Below are positions 1 to 64,000 of a DNA stretch of 64,000 nt, piece by piece. This stretch comes from Chamaelirium japonicum (Eukaryota; Streptophyta; Magnoliopsida; Liliales; Melanthiaceae). Position numbers and translations under genes: made by a program. Each line of letters begins with the position of its first letter. Within the stretch, counting starts at the first letter, position 1. The stretch lies in assembly GCA_947650365.1 (NCBI GenBank), contig OX393549.1, forward strand, positions 28,425,209-28,489,208. Reading direction: 5' to 3'. Below the pieces are notes generated by a model that saw only the letters and a list, made by a program, of their open reading frames with translations, made no database searches and was not told the origin of the DNA.

Positions 1-848
1 GAATTAGAATGGATCGTACGAAGGAATTAGAATGGATCGTACGAATGAATTAGAATGGATCGTACAATTGAATTAGAATGGATCATACGAATGAGTAAGA
101 ATGGATCGTATGAATGAATTAAATTGGATCGTACGATACATTCTAATTCATTAGCATGGATCGTGCTAATGAATTAGAATGGAATATACAAATGAATTAG
201 TATGGATCGTAGAATGGATCGTACGAATGAATTAGAATGAATTAGAATGGATCGTACGAATGAATTAGAATAGATCATAGGAATGAATTAGAATGGATCG
301 TGCAAATGAATTAGAATGGATACATTCGTGCGAATGAATTAGAATGGATCGTGCGAATGAATTAGAATGGATCGTACGAATGAATTAGAATGGATATATT
401 TGAACGAATAAATTAGAATGGATCATACGAATGAATTAGAATGGATCGTACGAATGAATTAGAATGGATAGTGCGAATGAATTAGAATCGATCATACGAA
501 TGAATTAGAATGGATCGTACGAATGAATTAGAATGGATCATACGAATGAGTAAGAATGGATCGTACGAATGAATTAGAATGGATCGTACGAATGAATTAG
601 AATGGATCGTACGAATAAATTAGAATGGATACATTCGTTCGAATGAATTAGAATGGATCATACGAATGAGTAAGAATGGATCGTACGAATGAAATAGAAT
701 AGATTGTTCGAATGAATTAGAATGGATCCTACGAATGAATTAGAATGGATCGTGTGAAAGAATTAGAATGGATTGTATGAATGAATTAGAATAGATCATA
801 TGAATGAATTAGAATGGATCATGCGAATGAATTTGAATGGATCGTACG
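1..848 (+). repeat. Satellite block 1 (+)
   Basis: Head-to-tail + monomers, entering from outside the window. It includes one inverted monomer at 131-163 and a truncated monomer near 225. The segment at about 605-710 carries the conserved module of variants (AATAAATTAG, a 28-mer, GAGTAAG, GAAATAG) seen across the array. It ends in a GTACGAATTCATTC switch. Confidence 0.93.
139..181. repeat. One-monomer inversion with 18-bp perfect inverted arms
   Basis: CATTCTAATTCATTAGCA at 139-156 is the exact reverse complement of TGCTAATGAATTAGAATG at 164-181, with the 7-base loop TGGATCG. Single monomers inverted inside an otherwise + run are rare in the window. The TTAGCA/TGCTAA variant marks a subfamily that recurs near 940, 6020, 8485, 15600, 19240, 20800, 26345, 27120 and 30065. 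Confidence 0.9.
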
Positions 849-3069
849 AATTCATTCTAATTCATTCATACAATCCATTCTAATTCTTTCACACGATCCA
901 TTCTAATTCATTCGTACGTTCCATTCTAATTCATTAGCACGATCCATGCTAATTCATTCGTTCGATCAATTCTAATTCATTAGCACGATCCATTCTAATT
1001 CATTCGTACGATCCATTCTAATTCATTCGCACGATCCATTCTAATTCATTCATAGGATCCATTCTAATTCATTCATACGATCTATTCTAATTCTTTTGCA
1101 CGAATGTATCCATTCTAATTCATTCGCACGAATGTATCCATTCAAATTCATTTGTACGATCCATTCTAATTCATTCGTACGATCCATTCTAATTCATTCG
1201 TACGATCCATTCTAATTCATTCATACTTTCTATTCTAATTCATTCATACAATCCTTTCTAATTCTTTCACACGATCCATTCTAATTCATTCGTACGATCC
1301 ATTCTAATTCATTCGCACAATCCATTCTATTTCATTCGTACGATCCATTCTTACTCATTGGTACGATCCATTCTAAATCATTCGCACGAATGTATCCATT
1401 CTAATTCATTCGTACGAATCCATTCTAATTCATTCGTACAATCTATTCTATTTCATTCGTACGATCCATTCTTACTCATTCGTATGATCCATTCTAATTC
1501 ATTCGCACGAATGTATCCATTCTAAATCATTCGTACGATCCATTCTAATTCATTCGTACGATCCATTCTAAATCATTCGTACAATCCATTCTATTTCATT
1601 CGTACGATCAATTCTAATTCATTAGCATGATCCATTCTAATTCATTCGTACGATCCATTCAAATTCATTCGCACGATCCATTCTAATTCATTCGTACAAT
1701 CCATTCTATTTCATTCGTACTATCCATTCTTACTCATTCATATGATCCATTCTAATTCATTCGCACGAATGTATCCATTCTAATCCATTCGTACGATCCA
1801 TTCTAATCCATTCGTACGATCCATTCTAATTCATTCGCATGAATGTAACCATTCTAATTCATTCATTTGATCCATTCTAATTCATTCGTCCGATCCATTC
1901 TAATTCATTCGCACGAATGTATCCATTCTAAACCATTCATACGATCCATTCTAATTTATTCGTACGATCCATTCTAATTCATTCGTAAGATCCATTCTAA
2001 TTCATTCGTACGATCCATTCTAATTCATTCGTACGATCCATTCTAATTCATTCGTAAGATCCATTCTAATTCATTCGTACGATCTATTCTAATTCATTCG
2101 TACGATCCATTCTAATTCATTCGCACGAATGTATCCATTCTAGTTCATTCGTACGATCCATTCTAATTCATTCGTACGATCCATTCTAATTTATTCGCAC
2201 GATCCATTCTAATTCATTTGTACGATCCATTCTAATTCATTCATACGATCCATTCTAATTCATTCGTACGATCCATTCTAATTCATTCGCACAAATGTAT
2301 CCATTCTAATTCATTCGTACGATCCATTCTAATTCATTCGCACGATTCATTCTAATTCATTCGTACGATTCATTCTAATTCTTTCACACGATCCATTCTA
2401 ATTCATTCGTACGATCCATTCTAATTCATTCGCACGATCCATTCTAATTCATTCATACGATCCATTCTAATTCATTCGTACGATCCATTCTAATTCATTC
2501 GCACAAATGTATCCATTCTAATTCATTCGTACGATCCATTCTAATTTATTCGCACGATCCATTCTAATTCATTCGTACGATCCATTCAAATTCATTCGCA
2601 CGATCTGTTCTTATTCATTCGCACAATCCATTCTAATTCATTCGCACGAATGTATCCATTCTAATTCATTCGTACGATCCATTCTAATTCATTCGTACGA
2701 TCCATTCTAATTCATTCGTATGATCCATTCTAATTAATTCATATGATCCATTCTAATTCATTCGTACGATCCATTTTAATTCATTCATACAATCCATTTT
2801 AATTCATTCGTACGATCCATTCTAATTCACTCATACGATCCATTCTAATAAATTCATACGATCCATTCTAATTCATTTGCACGAATATATCCATTCTAAT
2901 TCATTCGTACGATCCATTCTAATTCTTTCGTACGATCCATTCTAATTCATTCGTACGATCTATTCTAATTCATTCGTACGATCCATTCTAATTCCTTCGT
3001 ACGATCCATTCTAATTCCTTCGTACGATCCATTCTAATTCATTCGTACAATCTATTCTAATTCATTCGT
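849..3069 (-). repeat. Satellite block 2 (-)
   Basis: About 2.2 kb in the CCATTC-reading orientation, rich in 28-bp variants (GCACGAATGTATCC). Its first about 290 bp are duplicated at 8395-8690 at an offset of 7,546 bp, including the entry switch. It contains the CACTCATAC, AATAAATTC and TTTGCACGAATATATCC variant series near 2825-2895 and ends at the GT|AC switch. Confidence 0.93.
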
Positions 3070-3451
3070 ACTAATGGATACATTCGTGTGAATGAATTAG
3101 AATGGATCGTACGAATGAGTAAGAATGGATCGTACGAATGAAATAGAATGGATTGCACGAATGAATTAGAATGGATCGTACGAATGAATTAGAATGGATC
3201 GTGTGAAAGAATTAGAATGGATTGTATGAATGAATTAGAATGGATCATACGAATGAATTAGAATGGATCGTACGAAGGAATTAGAATGGATCGTACGAAT
3301 GAATTAGAATGGATCGTACGAATGAATTAGAATAGATCGTACGAATGAATTAGAATGGATCGTACGAAGGAATTAGAATGGATCGTATGAATGAATTAGA
3401 ATGGATCGTACGAATGAATTAGAATAGATCGTACGAATGAATTAGAATGGA
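3070..3451 (+). repeat. Satellite block 3 (+)
   Basis: Begins with GGATACATTCGTGTGAATG, then GAGTAAG and GAAATAG variants. This is the same start signature as the short + arm of D-type HORs at 43148 and onward, so a fragment of that HOR lies here. It ends in a 14-bp perfect palindrome, GAATGGATCCATTC, at 3445-3458. Confidence 0.9.
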
Positions 3452-3488
3452 TCCATTCTAATTCATTCACACGAATGTATCCATTCGT
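3452..3488 (-). repeat. Satellite block 4 (-), about 37 bp
   Basis: The shortest full orientation block: little more than one 28-bp variant, CATTCACACGAATGTATCC, between a GGATCC-centred switch and a CATTCGTACGAATG switch. The exit side matches the R-type HOR start seen at 31385, 34614 and 38373. Confidence 0.88.
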
Positions 3489-4028: not shown

Positions 4029-6235
4029 CGATTCATTCTAATTCATTTGTACGATCCATTCTAATACATTCGTACGATTCATGCTAATTCATTCGCACGA
4101 TCCATTCTAATTCATTCGTACGATCCATTCTTATTCATTCATACGATCCATTCTAATTCATTCGCACAATCCATTCTAATTCATTCGTACAATCCATTCT
4201 AATTCATTCGTATGATCCATTCTAACTCATTCGGTGGATCCATTCTAGTTCATTCATACGATCCATTCTAATTCATTCCCACGATTCATTCTAATTTATT
4301 CGTACGATCCATTCTAATTCATTCGTACGATCTATTCTAATTCATTCGCACGAATGTAACCATTCTAATTCATTCATACGATTCATTCTAATTCATTCGT
4401 ATGAGCTATTCTAATTCATTCGTACGATCCATTCTAATTCATTCGTACGATCCATTGTAATTCATTTATACAATCCATTTATATTCATTCGCACAAATGT
4501 ATCCATTCAAATTCATTCGTATGATCCAGTCTAATTCATTCGTACGATCCATTCTAATTCATTCGCACGAATATATCCATTCTAATTCTTTCGTACGATG
4601 CATTCTAATTCATTCGTACGATCCATTCTAATTCATTCATTTGATCCATTCTAATTCATTCATACGATCCATTCTAATTCCTTCGTACGATCTATTCTAA
4701 TTCATTCGTACGATCTATTATAATTCATTCGTACGATCTATTTTAATTCCTTCGTACGATCCATTCTAATTCCTTCGTACGATCCATTCTATTTCATTCA
4801 TATGATCCATTCTAATTCCTTCGTACGATCCATTCTAATTCCTTCTTATCCATTCTAATTCACTCATACGATCCATTCTAATTCATTCGTATGATCCATT
4901 CTAATTCATTCATACAATCCATTCTAATTCATTCGCACGAATGTATCCATTCTAATCCATTCGTACGATCCATTCTAATCCATTCGTACGATCCATTCTA
5001 ATTCATTCGCATGAATGTAACCATTCTAATTCATTCATTTGATCCATTCTAATTCATTCGTACGATCCATTCTAATTCATTCGTCCGATCCATTCTAATT
5101 CATTCGCACGAATGTATCCATTCTAATTCATTCGTACGATCCATTCTAATCCGTTCTAATTCTTTCACACGATCCATTCTAATTCATTCGTAGGATCCAT
5201 TCTAATTCATTCGTACAATCTATTCTATTTCATTCATACGATCCATTCTTACTCATTCGTATGATCCATTCTAATTCATTCGGACAAATGTATCCATTCT
5301 AATTCATTCGTACGATCCATTCTAATTCATTCGTACGATCCATTCTTACTCATTCGTACGATCCATTCTAATTCATTCGTACGATCCATTCTAATTCATT
5401 CGTACGATCCATTCTAATTCATTCATACGATCCATTCTAATTCATCGATACGATCCATTCTAATTCATTGATACAATGCATTCTAATTCTTTCACACGAT
5501 CCATTCTAATTCATTCGTACGATCCATTCTAATTCATTCGTACAATCCATTCGATTTCATTTGTACGATCCATTCTTACTCATTTGTATGATCCATTCTA
5601 ATTCATTTGTACGATCCATTCTAACTCATTCGTACGATCCATTCTAATTCATTCGTACAATCCATTCTATTTCATTCGTACGATCCATTCTTACTCATTC
5701 GTATGATCCATTCTAATTGATTCGCACGAATGTATCCATTCTAATTCATTCATACAATCCATTCTAATTCATTCCGTACGATCCATTCTAATTCATTCGT
5801 ACGATCCATTCTAATTCCTTCGTACGATCCATTCGAATTCATTTGTACGATCTTCGTACGATCCAATCTAATTCAATCGTACGATCCATTCTAATTCCTT
5901 CGTACGATCCATTCTAATTCATTCGTACGATCCATTCTAATTCATTCATACAATCCATTCTAATTCTTTCAGACGATCCATTCTAATTCATTCGTACGAT
6001 CCATTCTAATTCATTAGCACGATCCATGCTAATTCATTCGTTCGATCAATTCTAATTCATTAGCACGATCCATTCTAATTCATTCGTACGATCCATTCTA
6101 ATTCATTCGCACGATCCATTCTGATTCATTAATAGGATCCATTCTAATTCATTCATACGATCTATTCTAATTCTTTCGCACGAATGTATCCATTCTAATT
6201 CATTCGCACGAATGTATCCATTCTAATTCATTCGT
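4029..6235 (-). repeat. Satellite block 6 (-)
   Basis: About 2.2 kb. It holds D-type long-arm markers: CACTCATACG near 4860, ATGAATGTAACC at 5011 and CATTTGATCC near 5035. The part around 4800-5140 is paralogous to about 9660-9980 in block 14, at an offset of 4,854 bp on one side and 4,831 bp on the other, a difference of exactly one monomer. It ends at CATTCGTACGAATG. Confidence 0.93.
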
Positions 6236-6728
6236 ACGAATGAATTAGAATGGATCGTACGAATGAATTAGAATAGATCGTATGAATGAATTAGAATGGA
6301 TCGTATGAAGGAATTAGAATGGATCGTACGAACGAATTAGAATGGATATATTCGTGCAAATGAATTAGAATGGATCGTATGAATGTATTAGAATGGATCG
6401 TATGAGTGAATTAGAATGGATCGTACGAATGAATTACAATGGATTGTATGAATGAATTAGAATGGATCGTACAAATGAATTAGAATTGATCGTACGAATT
6501 AATTAGAATGGATCGTACGAATGAATTAGAATGGATCGTACGAATGAATTAGAATGGATCGTACGAATGAATTAGAATGGATACATTCGTTCGAATGAAT
6601 TAGAATGGATACATTCGTGCGAAAGAATTAGAATAGATCGTATGAATGAATTAGAATGGATCCTATGAATGAATTAGAATGGATCGTGCGAATGAATTAG
6701 AATGGATCGTACGAATGAATTAGAATGC
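6236..6728 (+). repeat. Satellite block 7 (+)
   Basis: Contains GATATATTCGTGCAAATG followed by TATTAG and GAGTGAATTAG variants (about 6345-6420), the R long-arm series. It switches through GAATGCATTCG near 6726. Confidence 0.92.
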
Positions 6729-9143: not shown

Positions 9144-10244
9144 CATTCTAATTCATTCGTATGATCCATTCTAATTCATTTGTATCCATTCTATTTCATT
9201 CGCACGATCCATTCTAATTCATTCGCGCAATCTATTCTAATTCATTCGTACGATCCATTGTAATTCATTCGTACGATCCATTCTAATTCATTCATACAAT
9301 CCATTCTAATTTATTCGCACGAATGTATCCATTCTAATTCATTCGTTCGATCCAGTCTAATTCATTCGCACAATCTATTCTAATTCATTCATACGATCCA
9401 TTCTAATTCATTCGCACGAATGTATCCATTCTAATTCATTCATACGATCCATTCTACTTCATTCGTACTATCCGTTCTAATTCACTCATATGATCCATTC
9501 TAATTCATTCATACGATCCATTCTAATTCATTTGCACGAATATATCCATTCTAATTCATTCGTACGATCCATTCTAATTCATTCGTACGATCTATTCTAA
9601 TTCCTTCGTACGATCCATTCTAATTCCTTCGTACGATCCATTCTATTTCATTCGTATGATCCATTCTAATTCCTTCGTACGATCCATTCTAATTCCATCG
9701 TATCCATTCTAATTCACTCATACGATCCATTCTAATTCATTCATACGATCCATTCTAATTCATTCATACAATCCATTCTAATTCATTCGCACGAATGTAT
9801 CCATTCTAATCCATTCGTGCGATCCATTCTAATTCATTCGCATGAATGTAACCATTCTAATTCATTCATTAGATCCATTCTAATTCATTCGTACGATCCA
9901 TTCTAATTCATTCGTCCGATCCATTCTAATTCATTCGCACGAATGTGTCCATTCTAATTCATTCGTACGATCCATTTTAATTCATTCGTATGATCCATTC
10001 TAATTCATTCATAAGATCCATTCTAATTCATTCGTACGATCCATTCTAATTCATTCGTACGATCCATTCTAATTCATTCGCACGAATGTATCCATTCTAG
10101 TTCATTCGTACGATCCATTCTAGTTCATTCGTACGATCCATTCTAATTCATTCGTACGATCCATTCTAATTCATTCGTATGATCCATTCTAATTAATTCG
10201 TATGATCCATTCTAATTCATTCGCACAATCAATTCTATTTCATT
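9144..10244 (-). repeat. Satellite block 14 (-)
   Basis: Carries the second copy of the segment at 4.8-5.1 kb (ATGAATGTAACC at 9842, CACTCATACG at 9715) and the TTTGCACGAATATATCC marker near 9531. It exits at CATTGCGAATC, an imperfect version of the usual switch. Confidence 0.92.
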
Positions 10245-12340
10245 GCGAATCAATTAGACTGGATCGTGCGAATGAATAAGAATAGATCATACGAATGAAT
10301 TAGAATAGATCGTACGAATTAATTAGAATGGATACATTCGTGCGAATGAATTAGAATAGATTGTATGAATGAATTAGAATGGATCGTACGAATGAATTAG
10401 AATGGATCATACGAATTAATTAGAATGGATCATACGAATGAATTAGAATGGATCGTACGAATGAATTAGAATGGATCGTGCGAATGAATTAGAATGGATC
10501 GTACGAATGATTTAGAATGGATACATTTGTGCGAATGAATTAGAATGGATCGTACGAATGAATTAGAATGGATCGTATGAATGAATTAGACTGGATCGTA
10601 CGAATGAATTAGAATGGATCGTGCGAATGAATTTGAATGGATCGTACGAATGAATTAGAATGGATCGTGTGAAAGAATTAGAATGGATCGTACGAATGAA
10701 TTAGAATGGATCGTGCGAATGAATTAGAATGGATCGTACGAATGAATTAGAATGGATACATTTGTGCGAATGAATTAGAATGGATCGTACGAATGAATTA
10801 GAATGGATCGTATGAATGAATTAGAATGGATACATTCGTGCGAATGAATTAGAATGGATCGGACGAATGAATTAGAATGGATCGTACGAATGAATTAGAA
10901 TGGATCAAATGAATGAATTAGAATGGTTAAATTCATGCGAATGAATTAGAATGGATCGTGCGAATGAATTAGAATGGATCGTATGAATGGATTAGAATGG
11001 ATCCTACGAATGGATTAGAATGGATACCTTTGTGCATATGAATTAGAATGGATCGTACGAATGAATTAGAATGGATCGTACGAATGAATTAGAATGGATC
11101 GTATGAATGAATTAGAATGGATCGTGCGAATGAATTAGAATGGATCGTATGAAAGAATTAGAATGGATCGTACGAATGAATTAGAATGGATCGTACGAAT
11201 GAATTAGAATGGATCTTACAAATGAATTAGAATGGATCGTACGAATGAATTAGAATGGATCGTACGAATGAATTAGAATGGATCGTATGAATGAATTAGA
11301 ATGGATACATTCGTGCGAATGAATTAGAATGGATCGTGCACGAATGTATCCATTCTAATTCATTCGTACGATCCATTCTAATTCATATGCACAAAGGTAT
11401 CTATTCTAATCTATTCGTAGGATCCATTCTAATCCATTCGTACGATCCATTCTAATTCATTCGTACGATCCATTCTAATTCATTCGCTCGAATGTATCCA
11501 TTCTAATCCATTCGTACGATCCATTCTAATTCATTCGCATGAATGTAACCATTCTAATTCATTCATTTGATCCATTCTAATTCATTCGTACGATCCATTC
11601 TAATTCAATCGTCCGATCCATTCTAATTCATTCGCACGAATGTATCCATTCTAATTCATTCATACGATCCATTCAAATTCATTCGTACGATCCATTCTAC
11701 TTCATTCGCACAAATGTATCCATTCTAATTCATTCGTACGATCCATTCTAATTCATTCGCACGATCCATTCTAATTCATTCGTACGATCCATTCTAATTC
11801 TTTCACACGATCCATTCTAATTCATTCGTACGATCCATTCTAATTCATTCGCACGATCCATTCTAATTCATTCGTACGATCCATTCTAATTCATTCGCAC
11901 AAATGTATCCATTCTAATTCATTCGTACGATCCATTCTAATTCATTCGCATGATCCATTCTAATTCATTCGTACGATCCATTCTAATTCATTCGCACGAT
12001 CTGTTCTTATTCATTCGCACAATCCATTCTAATTCATTCGCACGAATGTATCCATTATAATTCATTCGTACGATCCATTCTAATTCATTCGTACGATCCA
12101 TTCTAATTCATTCGTATGATCCATTCTAATTAATTCGTATGATCCATTCTAATTCATTCGTACGATCTATTCTAATTCATTCATACAATCCATTCTAATT
12201 CTTTCACACGATCCATTCTAATTCATTCGTACGATCCATTCTAATTCATTCGTGCAATCCATTCTATTTCATTCGTACGATCCATTCTTACTCATTCGTA
12301 CGATCCATTCTAATTCATTCACACGAATGTATCCATTCGT
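10245..12340. repeat. Composite inverted unit, copy 1 (+ 10245-11338, - 11339-12340)
   Basis: A + arm of about 1.09 kb followed by a - arm of about 1.0 kb. The series GATCAAATG, GGTTAAATTCATGC, GATACCTTTGTGCATATG lies in the + arm. Its reverse complements (ATATGCACAAAGG, ATGAATGTAACC, CATTTGATCC) follow in mirror order in the - arm, so the unit is a long inverted repeat. The + to - switch runs through GGATCGTGCACGAATG. Confidence 0.85.
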
Positions 12341-14408
12341 ACGAATGAATTAGAATAGATTGTACGAATGAATTAGAATGGATCTTACGAAGGAATTAGA
12401 ATGGATCGTACGAATGAATTAGAATGGATCGTACGAATGAATTAGAATGGATCGTATGAATGAATTAGAATGGATCGTACGAATGAATTAGAATGGATCG
12501 TGCGAATGAATTAGAATGGATCGTACGAATGAATTAGAATGGATCGTGTGAAAGAATTCGAATGGATCGTACGAATGAATTAGAATGGATCGTGCGAATG
12601 AATTAGAATGGATCGTACGAATGAATTAGAATGGATACATTTGTGCGAATGAATTAGAATGGATCGGACGAATGAATTAGAATGGATCGTACGAATGAAT
12701 TAGAATGGATCAAATGAATGAATTAGAATGGTTACATTCATGCGAATGAATTAGAATGGATCGTACGAATGGATTAGACTGGATCGTATGAATGGATTAG
12801 AATGGATCGTATGAATGAATTAGAATGGATACATTCGTGCGAATGAATTAGAATGGATCGGACGAATGAATTAGAATGGATCGTACGAATGAATTAGAAT
12901 GGATCAAATGAATGAATTAGAATGGTTAAATTCATGCGAATGAATTAGAATGGATCGTGCGAATGAATTAGAATGGATCGTATGAATGGATTAGAATGGA
13001 TCCTATGAATGGATTAGAATGGATACCTTTGTGCATATGAATTAGAATGGATCGTACGAATGAATTAGAATGGATCGTACGAATGAATTAGAATGGATCA
13101 TTTGAATGAATTAGAATGGATCGTGCGAATGAATTAGAATGGATCGTATGAAAGAATTAGAATGGATCGTACGAATGAATTAGAATGGATCGTACGAATG
13201 AATTAGACTGGATCTTACAAATGAATTAGAATGGATCGTACGAATGAATTAGAATGGATCGTACGAATGAATTAGAATGGATACATTCGTGCGAATGAAT
13301 TAGAATGGATCGTGCACGAATGTATCCATTCTAATTCATTCGTACGATCCATTCTAATTCATTAATATGATCCATTCTAATTCATTCGTACGATCCATTC
13401 TAATTCATATGCACAAAGGTATCCATTCTAATCCATTCGTAGGATCCATTCTAATCCATTCGTACGATCCATTCTAATTCATTCGTACGATCCATTCTAA
13501 TTCATTCGCTCGAATGTATCCATTCTAATCCATTCGTACGATCCATTCTAATTCATTCGCATGAATGTAACCATTCTAATTCATTCATTTGATCCATTCT
13601 AATTCATTCGTACGATCCATTCTAATTCATTCGTTCGATCGATTCTAATTCATTCGCACGAATGTATCCATTCAAATTCATTCATACGATCCATTCTAAT
13701 TCATTCGTACGATCCATTCTAATTCATTCGCACAAATGTATCCATTCTAATTCATTCGTACGATCCATTCTAATTCATTCGCACGATCCATTCTAATTCA
13801 TTCGTACGATCCATTCTAATTCTTTCACACGATCCATTCTAATTCATTCGTACGATCCATTCTAATTCATTCGCACGATCCATTCTAATTCATTCGTACG
13901 ATCCATTCTAATTCATTCATACGATCCATTCTAATTCATTCGTACGATCCATTCTAATTCATTCGCACAAATGTATCCATTCTAATTCATTCGTATTATC
14001 CATTCTAATTCATTCGCACGATCCATTCTAATTCATTCGTACGATCCATTCTAATTCATTCGCACGATCTGTTCTTATTCATTCGCACAATCCATTCTAA
14101 TTCATTCGCACGAATGTATCCATTATAATTCATTCGTACGATCCATTCTAATTCATTCGTACGATCCATTCTAATTCATTCGTATGATCCATTCTAATTA
14201 ATTCGTATGATCCATTCTAATTCATTCGTACGATCCATTCTAATTCATTCATACAATCCATTCTAATTCTTTAACACGATCCATTCTAATTTATTCGTAC
14301 GATCCATTCTAATTCATTCGTGCAATCCATTCTATTTCATTCGTACGATCCATTCTTACTCATTCGTACGATCCATTCTAATTCATTCACACGAATGTAT
14401 CCATTCGT
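12341..14408. repeat. Composite inverted unit, copy 2 (+ 12341-13314, - 13315-14408)
   Basis: A direct copy of the preceding unit. GGTTAAATTC lies at 10925 and 12924 and GATACCTTTG at 11023 and 13022 (both 1,999 bp apart). CTGTTCTTAT at 12001 and 14069, and the exit switches at 12340 and 14408, are 2,068 bp apart. The 69-bp difference equals three monomers. Arms are close to equal (974 and 1,094 bp). Confidence 0.88.
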
Positions 14409-25412: not shown

Positions 25413-25423
25413 ACGATCCATTC
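25402..25423. repeat. 22-bp perfect palindrome at a + to - switch
   Basis: GAATGGATCGT is followed directly by its reverse complement with no spacer. This is what results if inversion occurs exactly at the GTAC centre of a consensus monomer. Confidence 0.92.
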
Positions 25424-50100: not shown

Positions 50101-50327
50101 TTCTAATTCATTTGCACGAATATATCCATTCTAATTCATTCGTACGATCCATTCTAATTCCTTCGTACGATCCATTCTAATTCATTCGTACGATCTATTC
50201 TAATTCATTCGTACGATCCATTCTAATTCATTCGTACGATACATTCTAATTCTTTCATACGATCCATTCTAATTCATTCGTGCGATCCATTCTAATTCAT
50301 TCGTACAATCTATTCTAATTCATTTGT
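47109..50327. repeat. Higher-order repeat D2 (3,219 bp; + to about 48224, - to 50327)
   Basis: A good reference copy of the D orientation. Short arm 1.12 kb, long arm 2.10 kb. The long arm holds two copies of the TTACTC...GTATGATCC...28-mer segment at 48310 and 48568 (258 bp apart), which D4 has collapsed to one. The arm junction GGATCGCACGAATATATCC is the exact reverse complement of the R1 arm junction. Confidence 0.88.
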
Positions 50328-53300
50328 ACGAATGGATACATTCGTGTGAATGAATTAGAATGGAACGTACGAATGAGTAAGAATGGATCGTACGAAGGAA
50401 ATAGAATGGATTGCACGAATGAATTAGAATGGATCGTACTAATGAATTAGAATGGATCATGTGAAAGAATTAGAATGGATTGTATGAATGAATTAGAATG
50501 GATCGTACGAAGGAATTAGAATGGATCGTACGAATGAATTAGAATGGATCGTACGAATGAATTAGAATAGATCATACGAATGAATTAGAATGGATCGTAC
50601 GAATGAATTAGAATGGATCGTGTGAAAGAATTAGAATGGATCGTACGAATGAATTAGAATGGATCGTGCGAATGAATTAGAATAGATTGCGCGAATGAAT
50701 TAGAATGGATCGTGCGAATGAATTAGAATGGATCGTACGAATGAATTAGAATGGATCGTACGAATAAATAAGAATAGATTGCGCGAATGAATTAGAATGG
50801 ATCGTTCGAATGAATTAGAATGAATCGTACGAAGGAATTAGAATGGATCCTATGAATGAATTAGAATGGATCGTACGAATGAATTAGAATGGATCGTACG
50901 AAGGAATTAGAATGGATCGTACGAATGAATTAGAATGGATCGTACGAATGAATTAGAATGGATCTTACGAATGAATTAGAATGGATCGTACGAATGAATT
51001 AGAATGGATTGTACGAATAAATTAGAATGGATACATTCGTGCGAATGAATTAGAATGGATCGGACGAATGAATTAGAATGGATCGTTCGAATGAATTAGA
51101 ATGGATCGTACGAATGAATTAGAATGGATCGTACGAATCAATTAGAATGGATACATTCGTCCGAATGAATTAGTATGGATCATACGAATGAGTAAGAATG
51201 AATCGTACGAATGAAATAGAATAGATTGTATGAATGAATTAGAATGGATTCGAACGAATCAATTAGAATGGATACATTCGTGCGAATGAATTAGAATGGA
51301 TCGTACCAATGGGTAAGAATAAATCGTACGAATGAAATAGAATGGATTGTGCGAATTAATTAGAATGGATCGTACGAATGAATTAGAATGGATCGTGTGA
51401 AAGAATTAGAATGGATTGTATGAATGAATTAGAATAGATCGTATGAATGAATTAGAATGGATCGCACGAATGTATCCATTCTAATTCATTCGTACGAATC
51501 CATTCTAATTCATTCGTACAATCCATTATATTTCATTCGTACGATCTATTCTTACTCATTCGTACGATCCATTCTAATTCATTCGCACGAATGTATCCAT
51601 TCTAAATCATTCGTACGATCCATTCTAATTCATTCGTACGATCCATTCTAAATCATTTGTACAATCCATTCTATTTCATTCGTACGATCAATTCTAATTC
51701 ATTAGCACGATCCATTCTAATTCATTCGTACGATCCATTCAAATTCATTAGCACGATCCATTCTAATTCATTCGTACAATCCATTCTATTTCATTCGTAC
51801 GATCCATTCTTACTCATTCGTATGATCCATTCTAATTCATTCGCACGAATGTATCCATTCTAATCCATTCGTACGATCCATTCTAATCCATTCGTACAAT
51901 CCATTCTAATTCATTCGCATGAATATAACCATTCTAATTCATTCATTTGATCCATTCTAATTCATTCGTACGATCCATTCTAATTCATTCATCTGATCTA
52001 TTCTAATTCATTCTAATTCATTCGCACGAATGTATCCATTCTAATTCATTCGTACGATCAGTTCTAATTCATTCACAAAATCTATTCTAATTCATTCATA
52101 CGATCTATTCTAATTCATTCACACGAATGTATCCATTCTAATTCATTCATACGATCCATTCTAATTCATTTGTATGATCCATTCTAATTCACTCATACGA
52201 TCCATTCTAATACATTCATACGATCCATTCTAATTCATTTGCATGAATATATCCATTCTATTTCATTCGTACGATCCATTCTAATTCCTTCGTACGATCC
52301 ATTCTAATTCATTCGTACGATTTATTCTATTTCATTCGTACGATTCATTCTTACTCATTCGTACGATCCATTCTAATTCATTCGTCCGATCCATTCTAAT
52401 TCATTCGCACGAATGTATCCATTCTAATTCATTTGCACGATCCATTCTAATTCATTCCTATGATCTATTCTAATTCATTCGTACGATTCATTCGTACGAT
52501 CCATTCTACGATCCATTCTAATTCATTCATACTATCCATTCTAATTCATATGCACAAAGGTATCCATTCTAATCCATTCGTAGGATCCATTCTAATCCAT
52601 TCGTACGATACATTCTAATTCATTCGTACGATCCATTCTAATTTATTCGCACGAATGTATCCATTCTAATTCATTCGTACGATCCATTCTAATTCATTCG
52701 CACAATCTATTTTAATTCATTCATACGATCCATTCTAATTCATTCGCACGAATGTATCCATTCTAATTCATTCATACGATCCATTCTAATTCATTCGCAC
52801 GAATGTATCCATTCTAATTCATTCATACGATCCATTCTACTTCATTCGTACTATCCGTTCTAATTCACTCATACGATCCATTCTAATTCATTTGCACAAA
52901 GGTATCCATTCTAATTCATTCGTACGATCCATTCGAATTCATTCGCACGATCCATTCTAATTCATTCGTACGATCCATTCTAATTTATTCGTACGATCCT
53001 TTCTAATTCATTCGCACGATCCATTCTAATTCATTCGTACAATCTATTCTATTTCATTCGTACGATCCATTCTTACTCATTCATATGATCCATTCTAATT
53101 CATTCGGATGAATGTATCCATTCTAATTTATTCGTACGATCCATTATAATTCATTCGTACGATCCATTCTAATTCATTCGTACGATCCATTCTAATTCAT
53201 TCGTACGATCCAGTCTAATTCATTCATACAATCCATTCTAATTCATTCGTACGATCCATTCTAATTCACTCATACGATCCATTCTAATACATTCATACGA

Positions 53301-53531
53301 TCCATTCTAATTCATTTGCACGAATATATCCATTCTAATTCATTCGTACGATCCATTCTAATTCCTTCGTACGAACCATTCTAATTCATTCGTACGATCT
53401 ATTCTAATTCATTCGTACGATCAATTCTAATTCATTCGTACGATCCATTCTAATTCCTTCGTACGATCCATTCTAATTCATTCGTACGATCCATTCTAAT
53501 TCATTCGTACAATCTATTTTAATTCATTCGT
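50328..53531. repeat. Higher-order repeat D3 (3,204 bp; + to about 51465, - to 53531)
   Basis: Full set of D markers. The 28-mer GCACGAATGTATCC with CATTCATACG is duplicated near 52745-52825, adding about 51 bp, and about one monomer series before TTTGCACAAAGG is missing (52890). Confidence 0.87.
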
Positions 53532-56165
53532 ACGAATGGATACATTCGTGTGAATGAATTAGAATGGATCGTACGAATGAGTAAGAATGGATCGTACGAA
53601 TGAAATAGAATGGATTGCACGAATGAATTAGAATGGATCGTACGAATGAATTAGAATGGATCGTGTGAAGGAATTAGAATGGATTGTATGAATGAATTAG
53701 AATGGATCATACGAAGGAATTAGAATGGATCGTACGAATGAATTAGAATGGATCGTACGAATGAATTAGAATAGATCGTACGAATGAATTAGAATGGATC
53801 GTACGAATGAATTAGAATGGATCGTGTGAAAGAATTAGAATGGATCATACAAATGAATTAGAATGGATCGTGCGAATGAATTAGAATAGATTGCGCGAAT
53901 GAATTAGAATGGATCGTGCGAATGAATTAGAATGGATCGTACGAATGAATTAGAATAGATTGCGTGAATGAATTAGAATGGATCGTACGAATAAATTAGA
54001 ATGGATCGTACGAATAAATTAGAATAGATACATTCGTCCGAATGAATTAGAATGGATCAAACGAATGAGTAAGAATGGATCGTACGAATGAAATAGAATA
54101 GATTGTACGAATGAATTAGAATGGATTCGTACGAATGAATTAGAATGGATACATTCGTGCGAATGAATTAGAATGGATCGTACCAATGAGTAAGAATGGA
54201 TCGTACGAATGAATTAGAATGGATTGTGCGAATGAATTAGAATGGATCGTACGAATGAATTAGAATGGATCGTGTGAAAGAATTAGAATGGATTGTATGA
54301 ATGAATTAGAATAAATCGTATGAATGAATTAGAATGGATTGCACGAATGTATCCATTCTAATTCATTCGTACGAATCCATTCTAATTCATTCGTACAATC
54401 CATTCTATTTCATTCGTACGATCCATTCTAACTCATTCGTATGATCCATTCTAATTCATTCGCACGAATGTATCCATTCTAATCCATTCGTACGATCCAT
54501 TCTAATCCATTCGTACGATCCATTCTAATTCATTCGCATGAATGTAACCATTCTAATTCATTCATTTGATCCATTCTAATTCATTCGTACGATCCATTCT
54601 AATTCATTCGTCTGATCCATTCTAATTCATTCTAATTCATTCGCACGAATGTATCCATTCTAATTCATTCGTACGATCAGTTCTAATTCATTCACAAAAT
54701 CTATTCTAATTCATTCATACGATCCATTCTAATTCATTCACACGAATGTATCCATTCTAATTCATTCATATGATCCATTCTAATTCATTCATACGATCCA
54801 TTCTAATTCACTCATACGTTCCATTCTAATACATTCATGCGATCTATTCTAATTCATTTGCACGAATATATCCATTCTAATTCATTCGTACGATCCATTC
54901 TAATTCCTTCGTACGATCCATTCTAATTCATTCGTACGATCTATTCTATTTCATTCGTACGATCCATTCTTACTCATTCGTACGATCCATTCTATTTCAT
55001 TCGTCCGATCTATTCTAATTCATTCGCACGAATGTATCCATTCTTATTCATTTGCACGATCCATTCTAATTCATTCCTATTATCTATTCTAATTCATTCG
55101 TACGATCCATTCTAATTCATTCTAATTCATTCGTACGATCCATTCTACGATCCATTCTAATTCATGCATACGATCCATTCTAATTCAAATGCACAAAGGT
55201 ATCCATTCTAATCCATTCGTAGGATCCATTCTAATCCATTCGTACGATACATTCTAATTCATTCGTACGATCCATTCTAATTTATTCGCACGAATTTATC
55301 CATTCTAATTCATTCGTATGATCCATTCTAATTCATTCGCACAATCTATTCTAATTCATTCATACGATCCATTCTAATTCATTCGCACGAATGTATCCAT
55401 TCTAATTCATTCATACGATCCATTCTACTTCATTCGTACTATCCGTTCTAATTCACTCATACGATCCATTCTAATTCACTCATACGATCCATTCTAATTC
55501 ATTTGCACAAAGGTATCCATTCTAATTCATTTGTACGATCCATTCAAATTCATTCGCACGATCCATTCTAATTCATTCGTATGATCCATTCTAATTCATT
55601 CGTACGATCCATTCTAATTCATTCACACGATCCATTCTAATTCATTCGTACAATCTATTCTATTTCATTCGTACGATCCATTCTTACTCATTCGTATGAT
55701 CCATTCTAATTCATTCGGACGAATGTATCCATTCTAATTTATTCGTACGATCCATTCTAATTCATTCGTACGATCCATTCTAATTCATTCGTACGATCCA
55801 TTCTAATTCATTCGTCCGATCCATTCTAATTCATTCACACGATCCATTCTAATTCATTCGTACGATCCATTCTAATTCATTCATACAATCCATTCTAATT
55901 CATTCGTACGATCCATTCTAATTCACTCATACGATCCATTCTAATACATTCATACGATCCATTCTAATTCATTTGCACGAATATATCCATAATAATTCAT
56001 TCGTACGATCCATTCTAATTCATTCGTACGATCTATTCTAATTCATTCGGACGATCCATTCTAATTCATTCTTATGACCCATTCTAATTCCTTCTTACGA
56101 TCCATTCTAATTCATTCGTACGATCCATTCTAATTCATTCGTACAATCTATTCTAATTCATTCGT
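53532..56165. repeat. Higher-order repeat D4, internally deleted (2,634 bp; + to about 54342, - to 56165)
   Basis: Both arms are shorter than in D2 and D3. The short arm is about 810 bp instead of about 1.12 kb: the stretch with GAAGGAATTAG, GATCTTACG and GATCGGACG between the GATTGCG and CGTCCG monomers is gone. In the long arm the segment between two TTACTC repeats is gone, leaving AACTCATTCG at about 54430. Both deletions preserve monomer phase. Confidence 0.85.
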
Positions 56166-59100
56166 ACGAATGGATACATTCGTGTGAATGAATTAGAATG
56201 GATCGTACAAATGAGTAAGAATGAATCGTACGAATGAAATAGAATGGATTGCACGAATGAATTAGAATGGATCGTACGAATGGATTAGAATGGATCGTAC
56301 GAATGGATTAGAATGGATACATTCGAGCGAATGAATTAGAATGGATCGTACGAATGAATTAGAATGGATCGTACGAATGGATTAGAATGGATCGAACGAA
56401 TGAACTAGAATGGATAAATTCGTCCGAATGAATTAGAATGGATCGTACGAATGAATTAGAATGGATCGTACGAATGAATTAGAATAGATCGTACGAATGA
56501 ATTAGAATGGATCGTACGAATGAATTAGAATGGATCGTGTGAAAGAATTAGAATGGATCGTACGAATGAATTAGAATGGATCGTGCGAATGAATTAGAAT
56601 AGATTGCACGAATGAATTAGAATGGATCGTGCGAATGAATTAGAATAGATCGTACGATTGAATTAGAATGGAGCGTATGAATGAATTAGAATAGATTGCG
56701 CGAATGAATTAGAATGGATCGTACGAATGAATTAGAATGGATTGTACGAATGAATTAGAATGGATCGTACGAAGGAATTAGAATGGATCGTACGAATGAA
56801 TTAGAATGGATCGTACGAATGAATTAGAATGGATCTTACGAATGAATTAGAATGGATCGTATGAATGAATTAGAATGGATCGTACGAATGAATTAGAATG
56901 GATACATTCGTGCGAATGAATTAGAAAGGATCGGACGAATGAATTAGAATGGATCGTAAGAATGAATTAGAATGGATCGTACGAATGAATTAGAATGGAT
57001 CGTACGAATAAATTAGAATAGATACATTCGTCCGAATAAATTAGAATGGATCATACGAATGAGTAAGAATGGATCGTACGAATGAAATAGAATAGATTGT
57101 ACGAATGAATTAAAATGGATTCGTACGAATGAATTAGAATAGATACATTCGTGCGAATGAATTAGAATGGATCGTACCAATGAGTAAGAATGGATCGTAC
57201 GAATGAAATAGAATGGATTGTGCGAATGAATTAGAATGGATCGTACGAATGAATTAGAATGGATCGTGTGAAAGAATTAGAATGGATTGTATGAATGAAT
57301 TAGAATAGATCGTATGAATGAATTAGAATGGATTGCACGAATGTATCCATTCTAATTCATTCGTACGAATCCATTCTAATTCATTCGTACAATCCATTCT
57401 ATTTCATTCGTACGATCCATTCTTACTCATTCGTATGATCCATTCTAATTCATTCGCACGAATGTATCCACTCTAAATCATTCGTACGATCCATTCTAAT
57501 TCATTCGTACGATCCATTTTAAATCATTCGTACAATCCATTCTATTTCATTCGTACGATCAATTCTATATCATTAGCATGATCCATTTTAATTCAATCGT
57601 ACGATCCATTCAAATTCATTCGCACGATCCATTCTAATTCATTCGTACAATACATTCTATTTCATTCGTACAATCCATTCTTACTCATTCGTATGATCCA
57701 TTCTAATTCATTAGCACGAATGTATCCATTCTAATCCATTCGTACTATCCATTCTAATTCATTCGCATGAATGTAACCATTCTAATTCATTCATCTGATC
57801 CATTCTAATTCATTCGTACGATCCATTCTAATTCATTCGTCCGATCGATTCTAATTCATTCTAATTCATTCGCACAAATGTATCCATTCTAATTCATTCG
57901 TACGATCAGTTCTAATTCATTCACAAAATCTATTCTAATTCATTCATACGATCCATTCTAATTCATTCACACGAATGTATCCATTCTAATTCATTCATAC
58001 GATCCATTCTAATTCATTCATACGATCCATTCTAATTCACTCATACGATCCATTCTAATACATTCATACGATCCATTCTAATTCATTTGCACGAATATAT
58101 CCATTCTAATTCATTCGTACGATCCATTCTAATTCCTTCGTACGATCCATTCTAATTCATTCGTACGATCTATTCTATTTCATTCGTATGATCCATTCTT
58201 ACACATTCGTACGATCCATTCTAATTCATTCGTCCGATCCATTCTAATTCATTCGCACGAATGTATCCATTCTAATTCATTTGCACGATCCATTCTAATT
58301 CATTCCTATGATCTATTCTAATTCATTCGTACGATCCATTCTAATTCATTCTAATTCATTCGTACGATCCATTCTATGATCCATTCTAATTCATTGATAC
58401 GATCCATTCTAATACATATGCACAAAGGTATCCATTCTAATCCATTCGTAGGATCCATTCTAATCCATTCGTACAATACATTCTAATTCATTCGTACGAT
58501 CCATTCTAATTTATTCGCACGAATGTATTCATTCTAATTCATTCGTACGATCCATTCTAATTCATTCGCACAATCTATTTTAATTCATTCATACGATCCA
58601 TTCTAATTCATTCGCACAAATGTATCCATTCTAATTCACTCATACGATCCATTCTAATTCACTCATACGATCCATTCTAATTCATTCATACGATCCATTC
58701 TAATTCATTTGCACAAAGGTATCCATTCTAATTCATTCGTACGATCCATTCGAATTCATTCGCACGATCCATTCTAATTCATTCGTATGATCCATTCTAA
58801 TTCATTCGTACGATCCATTCTAATTCATTCGCACGATCCATTCTAATTCATTCGTACAATCTATTCTATTTCATTCGTACGATACATTCTTTCTCATTCG
58901 TATGATCCATTCTAATTCATTCGGACGAATGTATCCATTCTAATTTATTCGTACGATCCATTCTAATTTATTCGTACGATCCATTCTAATTCATTCGTAC
59001 GATCCATTCTAATTCATTCGTCCGATCCATTCTAATTCATTCACACGATCCATTCTAATTCATTCGTACGATCCATTCTAATTCATTCATACAATGCATT

Positions 59101-59394
59101 CTAATTCATTCGTACGATCCATTCTAATTCACTCATACGATCCATTCTAATACATTCATACGATACATTCTAATTCATTTGCACGAATATATCCATTCTA
59201 ATTCATTCGTACGATCCATTCTAATTCCTTCGTACGATCCATTCTAATTCATTCGTACGATCTATTCTAATTCATTCGTACGATCCATTCTAATTCATTC
59301 GTACGATCCATTCTAATTCCTTCGTACGATCCATTCGAATTCATTCGTACGATCCATTCAAATTCATTCGTACAATCTATTCTAATTCATTCGT
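56166..59394. repeat. Higher-order repeat D5 (3,229 bp; + to about 57335, - to 59394)
   Basis: The short arm has a patch at about 56280-56425 (GAATGGATTAG twice, CGAGCG 28-mer, GAACTAG, GATAAATTCGTCCG) in place of the usual GTGTGAAAG / GAAGGAATTAG series. The patch variants are those of Zone I (18240-18300, 26515-26550). In the long arm one CTTCATTCGTACTATCCG monomer is missing near 58640. Confidence 0.86.
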
Positions 59395-62300
59395 ACGAAC
59401 GGATACATTCGTGTGAATAAATTAGAATGGATCGTACGAATGAGTAAGAATGGATCGTACGAATGAAATAGAATGGATTGCACGAATGAATTAGAATGGA
59501 TCGTACGAATGAATTAGAATGAATCGTGTGAAAGAATTAGAATGGATTGTATGAATGAATTAGAATGGATCGTACGAAGGAATTAGAATGGATCGTACGA
59601 ATGAATTAGAATGGATCGTACGAATGAATTAGAATAGATCGTACGAATGAATTAGAATGGATCGTACGAATGAATTAGAATGGATCGTGTGAAAGAATTA
59701 GAATGGATCGTACGAATGAATTAGAATGGATCCTGCGAATGAATTAGAATAGATTGCGCGAATGAATTAGAATGGATCGTGCGAATGAATTAGAATGGAT
59801 CGTACGAATGAATTAGAATGGATCGTACGAATGAATTTGAATAGATTGCGCGAATGAATTAGAATGGATCGTACGAATGAATTAGAATGGATCGTACGAA
59901 TGAATTAGAATGGATCGTACGAATAAATTAGAATGGATCGTACGAAGGAATTAGAATGGATCGTACGAATGAATTAGAATGGATCGTACGAATGAATTAG
60001 AATGGATCTTACGAATGAATTAGAATTGATCTACAAATGAATTAGAATGTTTCGTACGAATGAATTAGAATGGATACATTCGTGCGAATGAATTAGAATG
60101 GATCGGACGAATGAATTAGAATGGATCGTACGAATGAATTAGAATGGATCGTACGAATGAATTAGAATGGATCGTACGAATAAATTAGAATGGACACATT
60201 CGTCCGAATGAATTAGAATGGATCATACGAATGAGTAAGAATGGATCGTACGAATGAAATCGAATAGATTGTAAGAATGAATTAGAATGAATTCGTACGA
60301 ATGAATTAGAATGGATACATTCGTGCGAATGAATTAGAATGGATCATACCAATGAGTAAGAATAGATCGTACGAATGAAATAGAATGGATTGTGCGAATG
60401 AATTAGAATGCATCGTACGAATGAATTAGAATGGATCGTGTGAAAGAATTAGAATGGATTGTATGAATGAATTAGAATAGATCGTATGAATGAATTAGAA
60501 TGGATCGCACGAATGTATCCATTCTAATTCATTCGTACGAATCCATTCTAATTCATTCGTACAATCCATTCTATTTCATTCGTACGATCCATTCTTACTC
60601 ATTCGTATTATCCATTCTAATTCATTCGCACGAATGTTTCCATTCTAAATCATTCGTACGATCCATTCTAATTCATTCGTACGATCCATTCTAAATCATT
60701 CGTACAATCCATTCTATTTCATTCGTAAGATCAATTCTAATTCATTAGCACGATCCATTCTAATTCATTCGTACGATCCATTCAAATTCATTCGCACGAT
60801 CCATTCTAATTCATTCGTACAATCCATTCTATTTCATTCGTACGATCCATTCTTACTCATTCGTATGATCCATTCTAATTCATTCGCACGAATGTATCCA
60901 TTCTAATACATTCGTACGATCCATTCAAATCCATTCATACGATCCATTCTATTTCATTCACATGAATGTAACCATTCTAATTCATTCATTTGATCCATTC
61001 TAATTCATTCGTACGATCAATTCTAATTCATTCGTCCGATCCATTCTAATTCATTCTAATTCATTCGCACGAATGTATCCATTCTAATTCGTTCGTACGA
61101 TCAGTTCTAATTCATTCACAAAATCTATTCTAATTCATTCATACGATCCATTCTAATTCATTCACACGAATGTATCCATTCTAATTCATTCATACGATCC
61201 ATTCCAATTCATTCGTACGATCCATTCTAATTCACTCATACGATCCATTCTAATACATTCATATGATCCATGCTAATTCATTTGTATGAATATATCCATT
61301 CTAATTCATTCGTACGATCCATTCTAATTCCTTCGTATGATCCATTCTAATTCATTCGTACGATCTATTCTATTTCATTCGTACGATCCATTCTTACTCA
61401 TTCGTACGATCCATTCTAATTCATTCGTCCGATCCATTCTAATTCATTCGCACGAATGTATCCATTCTATTTCATTTGCACGATCCATTCTAATTCATTC
61501 CTATGATCTATTCTAATTCATTCGTACGGTCCATTCTAATTCATTCTAATTCATTCGTACGATCCATTCTATGATCCATTCTAATTCATTCATACGATCC
61601 ATTCTAATTCATATGCACAAAGGTATCCATTCTAATCCATTCGTAGGATCCATTCTAATCCATTCGTACGATACATTCTAATTCATTCATACGATCCATT
61701 CTAATTTATTCGCACGAATGTATCCATTCTAATTCATTCGTATGATTCATTCTAATTCATTCGCACAATCTATTCTAATTCATTCATACGATCCATTCTA
61801 AATCATTCGCATGAATGTATCCATTCTAATTCATTCATACGATCCATTCTACTTCATTCGTACTATCCGTTCTAATTCACTCATACGATCCATTCTAATT
61901 CATTCATACGATCCATTCTAATTCATTTGCACAAAGGTATCCATTCTAATTCATTTGTATGATCTATTCGAATTCATTCGCACGATCCATTCTAATTCAT
62001 TCGTACGATCCATTCTAATTTATTCGTACGATCCATTCTAATTCGTTCGCACGATCCATTCTAATTCATTCGTACAATCTATTCTATTTCATTCGTACGA
62101 TCCATTCTTACTCATTCGTATGATCCATTCTAATTCATTCGGACGAATCTATCCATTCTAATTTATTCGTACGATCCATTCTAATTCATTCGTACGATCC
62201 ATTCTAACTCATTCGTACGATCCATTCTAATTCATTCGTCCGATCCATTCTAATTCATTCACACGATCCATTCTAATTCATTCGTACGATCCATTCTAAC

Positions 62301-62612
62301 TCCTTTATACAATCCATTCTAATTCATTCGTAAGATCCATTCTAATTCACTCAGACGATCCATTCTAATACATTCATACTATCCATTCTAATTCATTTGC
62401 ACGAATATATCCATTCTAATTCATTCGTACGATCCATTCTAATTCCTTCGTACGATCCATTCTAATTCATTCGTACGATCTATTCTAATTCATTCGTATG
62501 ATCCATTCCAATTCATTCGTACGATCCATTCTAATTCCTTCGTACGATCCATTCTAATTCTTTCGTACGATCCATTCTAATTCATTCGTACAATCTATTC
62601 TAATTTATTCGT
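59395..62612. repeat. Higher-order repeat D6 (3,218 bp; + to about 60507, - to 62612)
   Basis: Full D marker order. Short-arm oddity: a shortened monomer, GATCTACAAATG, near 60030. The conserved module is present in + near 60175-60275 and in - near 62070-62175, giving an inverted pair within the unit. Confidence 0.87.
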
Positions 62613-63813
62613 ACGAATGGATACATTCGTGTGAATGAATTAGAATGGATCGTACGAATGAGTAAGAATGGATCGTACGAATGAAATAGAATGGATTGCA
62701 CGAATGAATTAGAATGGATCGTACGAATGAATTAGAATGGATCGTGTGAAAGAATTAGAATGGATTGTTTGAATGAATTAGAATGGATCGTACGAAGGAA
62801 TTAGAATGGATCGTACGAATGAATTAGAATGGATCGTACGAATGAATTAGAATAGATCGTACGAGTGAATTAGAATAGATCGTAAAAATGAATTAGAATG
62901 GATCGTGTGAAAGAATTAGAATGGATCGTACGAATGAATTAGAATGGATCGTGCGAATGAATTAGAATAGATTGCGCGAATGAATTAGAATGAATCGTAT
63001 GAATGAATTAGAATGGATCGTACGAATGAATTAGAATAGATTGAGCGAATGAATTAGAATGGATCGTACGAATGAATTAGAATGGATCGTACGAATGAAT
63101 TAGAATGGATCGTACGAATGAATTGTAATGGATCGTACGAATGAATTAGAATGGATCTTACGAATGAATTAGAATGGATCGTACGAATGAATTAGAATGG
63201 ATCGTATGAATGAATTAGAATGGATACATTCGTGCCAATGAATTATAATGGATCGGACGAATGAATTAGAATGGATCGTATGAATGAATTAGAATGGATC
63301 GTACGAATGAATTAGAATGGATCGTACGAATAAATTAGAATGGATCGTACCCATGAGTAAGAATGGATCGTACGAATGAAATAGAATGGATCGTGTGAAA
63401 GAATTAGAATAGATCGTATGAATGAATTAGAATGAATCCTATGAATGAATTAGAATTGATCGTACGAATGAAATAGAATGGATTGCACGAATGATTTAGA
63501 TTGGATCGTACGAATGAATTAGAATGGAATGTGTGAAAGAATTAGAATGCATTGTATGAATGAATTAGAATGGATCGTACGAATGAATTAGAATGGATCG
63601 TACGAAGGAATTAGAATGGATCGTACGAATGTATTAGAATGGATCGTACGAATGAATTAGAATGGATCATACGAATGAATTAGAATGGGTACATTTGTGC
63701 GAATGAATTAGAATGGATCGTACGAATGGATTAGAATGGATCGTACGAATGGATTAGAATGGATACATTCGTGCGAATGAATTAGAATGGATCATACGAA
63801 TGAGTAAGAATGG
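62613..63813 (+). repeat. D7: short arm of a further D unit, diverging at its end
   Basis: Follows the D short arm for about 730 bp, then, after AATAAATTAG (about 63333), jumps to GTACCCATGAGTAAG and on to Zone I-like variants (GATTTAG, GAATGGATTAG). It ends at AATGG|TCTAATTC without a palindrome. Confidence 0.82.
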
Positions 63814-63864
63814 TCTAATTCATTCGTACGATCCATTCTAATTCATTCGTATATTCCATTCTAA
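63814..63864 (-). repeat. Satellite block 64 (-), about 51 bp
   Basis: Two monomers in reverse orientation, one with CGTATATTCC. It leaves through CATTCTAAGATCCTACG, joined inside a monomer. Confidence 0.88.
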
Positions 63865-64000
63865 GATCCTACGAATGAATTAGAATGGATCGTACGAATG
63901 AATTAGAATGGATCGTACGAATGAATTAGAATGGATCGTGCGAATGAATTAGAATGGATACATTCGTGTGAATGAATGAGAATTGATCGTACGAATGAAT
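63865..64000 (+). repeat. Satellite block 65 (+), runs off the window
   Basis: About six monomers, with a GTGTG 28-mer near 63955. The array continues beyond the right edge. Confidence 0.92.

Follow-up and report, generated by a model that had tools for sequence, protein, structure and literature searches.

How does a satellite array come to reverse its strand about once in every kilobase? The question is raised by C1:28,425,209-28,489,208 of Chionographis japonica, a 64-kb stretch (hereafter the window), all of which consists of one short satellite with 23-bp and 28-bp monomers. We consider it probable that the founding junctions at which this satellite, the Chio1/Chio2 repeat, changes strand were few, and that they were multiplied along with the modules holding them by copying within and between centromere units.

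The 23-bp consensus monomer, GAATTAGAATGGATCGTACGAAT, is Chio1-like, and the 28-bp Chio2-like variant, as read from the sequence, has an extra ACATT (a 5-bp insertion) and an A to G change. The monomer carries an 8-bp dyad, TCGTACGA, which is its own reverse complement, and the TTCGTACGA motif is present in the reverse complement of the monomer, ATTCGTACGATCCATTCTAATTC. The assembly (1,518,659,071 bp in total) holds 1,147,794 forward and 1,162,229 reverse exact monomer matches, and these counts, taken with the density in the sampled stretches, extrapolate the satellite to 248 Mb, or 16.35% of the assembly. In published work on Chionographis japonica, the satellite cluster CL1 accounts for 16.11%, the monomers are of 23 and 28 bp, Chio1 lacks 5 bp of Chio2 and differs from it by 1 bp, and CENH3 enrichment of the Chio satellite was found by chromatin immunoprecipitation (PMC10264360). 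Since monomer lengths, the TTCGTACGA motif and the genome share of about 16% all match, the satellite of the window is the Chio1/Chio2 repeat of the CENH3-bound holocentromere, with CENH3 binding and centromere function being taken from the publication.

Strand was decoded with a two-strand hidden Markov model (HMM) with Chio1- and Chio2-like paths, run over 84 kb (the window with 10 kb to either side), in which 93.5% of the bases match, no 40-bp stretch has more than 9 mismatches and the 28-bp path is taken by 473 of 3,550 monomers. The window is thereby resolved into 69 blocks with 68 switches, or 72 switches under a simpler HMM.

1..64000, no strand assigned: uninterrupted Chio array with 68 strand switches (HMM decoding and consensus; identity from PMC10264360).

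An earlier reading made from the sequence alone had described a satellite reversing strand about every kilobase, with 65 orientation blocks and 64 switches. The decoding bears this out, with 64-68 switches in the window, and arrives at exactly those figures once blocks shorter than 23 bp are dropped; dropping those below 46 bp leaves 63 blocks. Simulated one-strand 64-kb arrays yielded no switches in ten of ten cases (five at 6.5% and five at 10% substitutions). Strand scoring by exact 8-mers was rejected in favor of HMMs, as it gave 143 runs, an overcount attributable to the dyad TCGTACGA of the monomer being its own reverse complement. An HMM version with a background state called no background sequence anywhere in the 84 kb, which, for the window, confirms the earlier statement that the switches are free of other sequence; an earlier model had called 16 bp of background in a piece outside it (L009). 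The additional short flips, of which at least four had been claimed, are indeed seen, and their number is three or five depending on the model: the two-strand HMM gives three blocks below 50 bp (13, 32 and 10 bp), and the simpler one gives the five below.

136..149, minus strand: sub-monomer flip (simpler HMM; the shortest flips are model-dependent).
3454-3484, 6807-6819, 16491-16505 and 27918-27933, some on the other strand: further short flips (simpler HMM; five in total, 13-31 bp).

We decoded four stretches on two chromosomes, namely A (the 84 kb at the window) and, of 30 kb each, B (C1:1.50 Mb), C (C1:50.00 Mb) and D (C2:20.00 Mb), excluding 13,052 bp of non-satellite sequence in B and 4,656 bp in D. 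Their satellite, 156.3 kb in all, contains 163 switches, or 1.04 per kb (A 1.05, B 0.94, C 1.40, D 0.67), and the mean block length is 0.7-1.4 kb depending on the stretch. The sequence-only reading was fair in calling such an arrangement unusual for a satellite; nevertheless, neither the array nor its mixed orientation is new, forward and reverse Chio monomers having been published as "frequently alternating" (Kuo 2023, PMC10264360; Kuo 2025, PMC12722358).

The evidence on the origin of the switches comes from the sequences of their junctions. The class analysis covered the 163 switches whose neighboring blocks both measure 46 bp or more, to which the window contributes 62 rather than 68, from the window, L009, L010, L016, L022, L025 and six further pieces; the part-satellite pieces L011, L012, L013 and L015, and L045, were left out. 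Junctions were grouped by phase into 31 classes, which were then merged at no more than two mismatches in 32-mers into 25, single-linkage clustering of 70-mers having been dropped because it chained unrelated junctions. Ten of the 25 classes hold 146 of the 163 switches, the sizes of the large ones being 29 (A), 14 (C), 13 each (D and E), 12 (F) and 11 (G). Classes are shared widely: ten (146 switches) are common to at least two of the four stretches, five (94 switches) to all four, and six (109 switches) to C1 and C2.

12320..12361, plus strand: copy of class A, tail-to-tail, with linked variants (the class makes up 29 of the 163 sampled switches; one of several copies in the window).
25405..25430, no strand assigned: class F, head-to-head fold on TCGTACGA, with many lineages (HMM, flank identity and lineages).
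6220..6251 (C1:28431428-28431459), no strand assigned: class J, a 32-bp perfect palindrome in which a tail-to-tail fold has the dyad TCGTACGA at its centre.
26170..26201 (C1:28451378-28451409), no strand assigned: second exact class J copy in the window.

Members of the large classes also resemble one another beyond the junction itself. Compared over 80 bp on each side with phase-matched nulls (0.841-0.865 across classes A-K), mean flank identity is 0.949 for A, 0.925 for B, 0.929 for C, 0.963 for D, 0.948 for E and 0.948 for G, and 0.861 for F, 0.904 for H, 0.886 for I, 0.902 for J and 0.914 for K. The five large classes A, C, D, E and G thus stand at 0.929-0.963 against a null of 0.850-0.858, and because flanks at 0.93-0.96 exceed the expected value of about 0.85, these classes look like copies by descent, as far as sequence comparison can tell. 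When lineages were drawn at a threshold of 0.925 by single linkage, in 13 of the 31 unmerged classes, A, D, E and G each formed a single lineage, while C (12, 1, 1), B (9, 7, 1) and J (4, 1, 1) formed three, and H (9, 1), I (5, 2) and K (4, 1) formed two. Altogether, 127 of 143 switches fall in lineages of at least two members. The earlier inference that such a density of switches requires a mechanism that inverts repeatedly hence finds little support, given that 146 of 163 switches belong to ten of the 25 classes and 127 of 143 to shared lineages.

The same junctions recur across the genome. The 42-mer of class A has 7,639 exact occurrences, a probe that covers the exact core only (19 sample sites against 29 class members); the 25-mer core common to C and E has 15,249, class J has 3,382 exact loci and the 22-mer core of class F has 5,655. 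All three junctions that are single in the sample and were counted genome-wide (T, U and V) proved to be multi-copy, whereas a control, an arbitrary junction absent from the sample, gave no exact match in the genome and 37 matches at one mismatch.

10229..10260 (C1:28435437-28435468), minus strand: class T, single in the sample; 4 exact copies in the genome and 82 at no more than one mismatch.
31166..31197 (C1:28456374-28456405), minus strand: class U, single in the sample; 30 exact copies in the genome and 292 at no more than one mismatch.
63798..63829 (C1:28489006-28489037), plus strand: class V, single in the sample; at least 100 exact copies in the genome and 153 at no more than one mismatch.

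On C1, the T, J and F matches listed cluster at about 1.4-3.2, 10.3-10.6, 17.1-18.4 and 27.4-31.1 Mb; the published holocentromere has CENH3-bound units of megabase scale, with about 10 Mb between neighbors (PMC10264360). The clusters are consistent with such units, of one of which the window would be a part. The assembly, at 1,519 Mb, is larger than the flow-cytometric 1C value of 1,368 Mb published for the species (PMC10264360), and some satellite contigs may therefore be haplotype duplicates by which the genome-wide counts are inflated.

Switches also recur together, as parts of larger modules. One of these in the window is a higher-order repeat of about 3.2 kb, bounded by class A (tail-to-tail) and class B (head-to-head) junctions, which runs forward and then reversed:

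31381..41154, plus strand: forward copies of the ~3.2-kb higher-order repeat (~2.07 kb plus, then ~1.14 kb minus), the last copy irregular.
41155..63813, minus strand: the 3.2-kb repeat reversed (typically ~1.1 kb plus, then ~2.1 kb minus), irregular at 44.2-47.1 kb.

The forward copies are spaced at 3,209-3,219 bp and show 98-99% ungapped identity over 808-971 bp, whereas the reversed part yields inverted matches to them that reach 942 bp at 98%; the point at which the entire module turns over lies at about 41.15 kb. Being multi-monomer and more alike than the monomers are, the 3.2-kb units are higher-order repeats in the accepted sense. By switch order and spacing, stretch D contains nearly twice an 11.1-11.5-kb unit with eight switches, and stretch B a 2.4-kb unit. 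Overall, of 158 pairs of neighboring switches, 45 are found again with both classes and spacing preserved (mean 13.9 and maximum 33 in 500 shuffles), and 19 recur between stretches (shuffles: mean 5.3, maximum 16). One module, J-348-B-285-A-144-F, is found in the same orientation in stretch A, just beyond the window (L010), and in stretch C, and a near-copy of it (spacings 134, 287 and 348) lies reversed at 25,416-26,185 of the window. Among the matches listed, all 56 consecutive C/E junctions at C1:1,688,539-2,996,576 read plus, the preceding 44 being mixed, and the orientation of class V agrees in 68 of 73 neighboring pairs on the same contig. These runs indicate that while monomers flip each kilobase, modules can stay head to tail over a megabase.

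Several observations concern copying on a larger scale. Among the C/E matches listed, spacings of 622 and 6,497 bp recur exactly 169,800 bp apart within C1:2,492,616-2,669,535, and from 2.57 to 2.81 Mb a 1,519-bp pair occurs five times; such repeated spacings imply that large segments of a single centromere unit were duplicated head to tail. The T, U and V junctions of the window have exact copies about 2.57 Mb downstream (C1:31.007-31.086 Mb) in the same order and orientation, with T-U distances of 26.2 kb there against 20.9 kb in the window and U-V distances of 31.7 against 32.6 kb, which suggests that copying within the centromere unit may have involved a segment of 53 kb or more. At C7:21,098,535-21,247,607, the T matches read -,+,+,+,-,-,-, of which the last six are mirrored (11,007 and 31,876 bp against 31,777 and 10,984 bp), giving a macro inverted repeat that extends about 63 kb from its centre. 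In the central 10 kb (L045), this centre falls close to where it was predicted (1,916 60-mers are shared, the next candidate having 243), the arms are about 93% alike and a spacer of about 3 kb is not symmetrical. GC-rich sequence resembling long terminal repeat (LTR) retrotransposons adjoins the satellite on C1 in L011 (1-8250), L012 (1-7150), L013 and L015, some of it about 90-100 kb from the window; this sequence was judged to be Ty3/gypsy by eye only, and L011 and L012 have 2.4 kb in common, in opposite orientation, at about 88% identity.

A number of results weigh against deriving the switches from few multiplied founders. Taken by itself, the window shows recurrence for only 12 of its 61 adjacent pairs. 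Of the 25 classes, 13 are single in the sample, ten of them outside the genome-wide counts, and the Chao1 estimate is 51 classes. Scaling from the stretches predicts 30,186 copies of the A 42-mer, 28,597 of the C/E core and 6,355 of J, against the 7,639, 15,249 and 3,382 found; the stretches thus over-represent common classes, the genome-wide junction set must exceed 25, and even the Chao1 figure probably falls short. Counts of the four common junctions add up to 31,925, about 12% of an extrapolated 259,000 switches, a sum that is a lower bound since exact matches were required. The cut-off for class merging and the 0.925 lineage threshold are choices, and single linkage can chain. Classes H, I, J and K lie only moderately above their null (0.886-0.914 against 0.851-0.865). 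Finally, class F comprises nine lineages among 12 copies, with a flank identity of 0.861 against a null of 0.849, and descent alone does not explain this number of lineages.

Class F is also the point at which a different process might be at work, namely continuing inversion, by hairpin or cruciform fold-back or by template switching at dyads, that makes new switches everywhere. The monomer does hold the dyad TCGTACGA, and F and J would be the two joins predicted from a fold-back or inversion there. Moreover, a microhomology or dyad overlap of at least 4 is seen in six of the 31 unmerged classes, against 3.6% of random Chio1 breakpoints, a comparison that is indicative only as some of the six use Chio2 positions. 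The C7 macro inverted repeat and the module flip at 41.15 kb show that larger inversions happen. A fold-back, however, should leave mirrored arms, and when 600-bp arms were compared at 161 of the 163 switches (two lacked full arms), the arms of a switch were no more mirror-alike than unrelated arms, with a median of 225 against 217 and five of the 161 in the top 5%. Neither did the dyad-centred classes (F, H, J with M, and Q) show better mirror similarity (n=32 against 129, p=0.37). A young origin of every junction as a fold-back with mirrored arms is thus not supported, and mirror similarity does not rise above background even in the dyad classes. Adjacent same-strand 600-bp segments are themselves slightly more alike than distant ones (277 against 256.5), so weak mirror similarity has to be read with care. 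The best mirror pair, at an H junction outside the window at -2058, reaches 94.5% identity over about 572 bp and speaks for inversion, and F and J flank one inverted block, as a single dyad-to-dyad inversion would leave them, in just one neighbor pair, in stretch C. Conversely, most of the switches studied are in classes that look copied, and the satellite of a sister species with the same 9-bp motif is consistently oriented (PMC12722358), from which it follows that the dyad alone is not enough. We therefore regard continuing inversion as an unlikely source of the switches at large. The hairpin or cruciform exchange proposed in the sequence-only reading retains a possible place for class F, whose head-to-head fold on TCGTACGA may form recurrently, and finds little support for switches generally, whose own arms are no more mirror-alike than unrelated ones. 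We likewise find it improbable that TCGTACGA is an active flip site at which F keeps forming, with switch-bearing modules having spread between units at the origin of the holocentromere; if this were true, active flipping at TCGTACGA together with module spread would tie orientation switching to holocentric spread.

Multiplication of few founding junctions along with their modules remains our preferred account: the small number of classes in the stretches sampled, the similar flanks of the large ones, the pairs at fixed spacing, the genome-wide recurrence of the seven junctions counted and the unmirrored arms argue that switch density is mainly inherited. Under this account, a limited set of founding inversion junctions would arise first, some of them perhaps when the array folded back or inverted at TCGTACGA, events that may still recur at a low rate. 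Multi-block modules would then be copied with their surroundings by tandem duplication and exchange, the route being possibly unequal exchange, conversion or break-induced copying. The sequence itself displays modules of about 2.4, 3.2 and 11.1-11.5 kb, the spacing of matches suggests one of about 170 kb, and copying would have taken place within units, between units and between chromosomes.

Selection on the junctions offers another explanation for their conservation, in that inverted monomers might fold into structures that aid CENH3 loading, as has been proposed for the macro-dyads of Tribolium. Junction sequences are indeed conserved in thousands of copies, and Tribolium madens has conserved inversion sites for which a functional role has been raised by the authors (PMC13081366). 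Nevertheless, in the large classes both flanks are conserved throughout the 80 bp compared, as copied modules should be, so that no constraint specific to the junction is revealed, and the CENH3 centromeres of the sister species lie on arrays of consistent orientation (PMC12722358). We accordingly hold selection to be very unlikely.

High-fidelity (HiFi) reads are usually far longer than the average block of 0.7-1.4 kb, and most switches should therefore fall inside single reads. That the switches are an assembly artefact of misjoined repeats is, on indirect evidence, very unlikely, notwithstanding the highly repetitive array and an assembly in excess of the 1C value, as the same junctions with their linked variants recur thousands of times and the published account, drawn from HiFi reads, includes CL73, a Chio1/2 higher-order repeat identified independently of assembly (PMC10264360).

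Among known systems, the published Chio1/Chio2 (PMC10264360, PMC12722358) is the system itself, with the same genome, monomer lengths, motif and mixed orientation. As far as consulted, the published accounts cover the mixture and the dyads, without a junction catalogue, lineages or copy counts, and a search of open-access literature aimed at a junction analysis of Chio found no published account of junction inheritance. The TmSat1 and TmSat2 satellites of Tribolium madens likewise form switching arrays, with inversion sites in 2,044, 3,486 and 6,428 copies (PMC13081366). Chio resembles these macro-dyads in having switched subarrays with conserved inversion sites, seen here as classes with conserved flanks. 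It differs in that the beetle has an element of about 110 bp and predominantly two subarrays of several kilobases per array (PMC13081366), whereas Chio has 69 blocks in 64 kb and a 23-bp monomer, and is hence no member of that type. As far as the two can be compared by description, Chio is set apart by switches about every kilobase, by many classes and by its place in a CENH3-bound plant holocentromere. The Chama satellite of Chamaelirium luteum, from the sister genus, is also CENH3-bound and has the 9-bp TTCGTACGA in common with Chio. It differs in belonging to a macro-monocentromere and in its 60-bp monomer, consistent orientation, higher-order repeats over hundreds of kilobases and freedom from internal retrotransposons (PMC12722358).

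The switch junctions of the Chio satellite can serve as heritable markers, and the large classes with linked variants can trace copying from unit to unit across chromosomes. Moreover, junction classes separate the inherited flips (A, D, E and G) from those that are possibly recurrent (F, at the dyad), and this separation makes the hairpin mechanism testable with existing reads.

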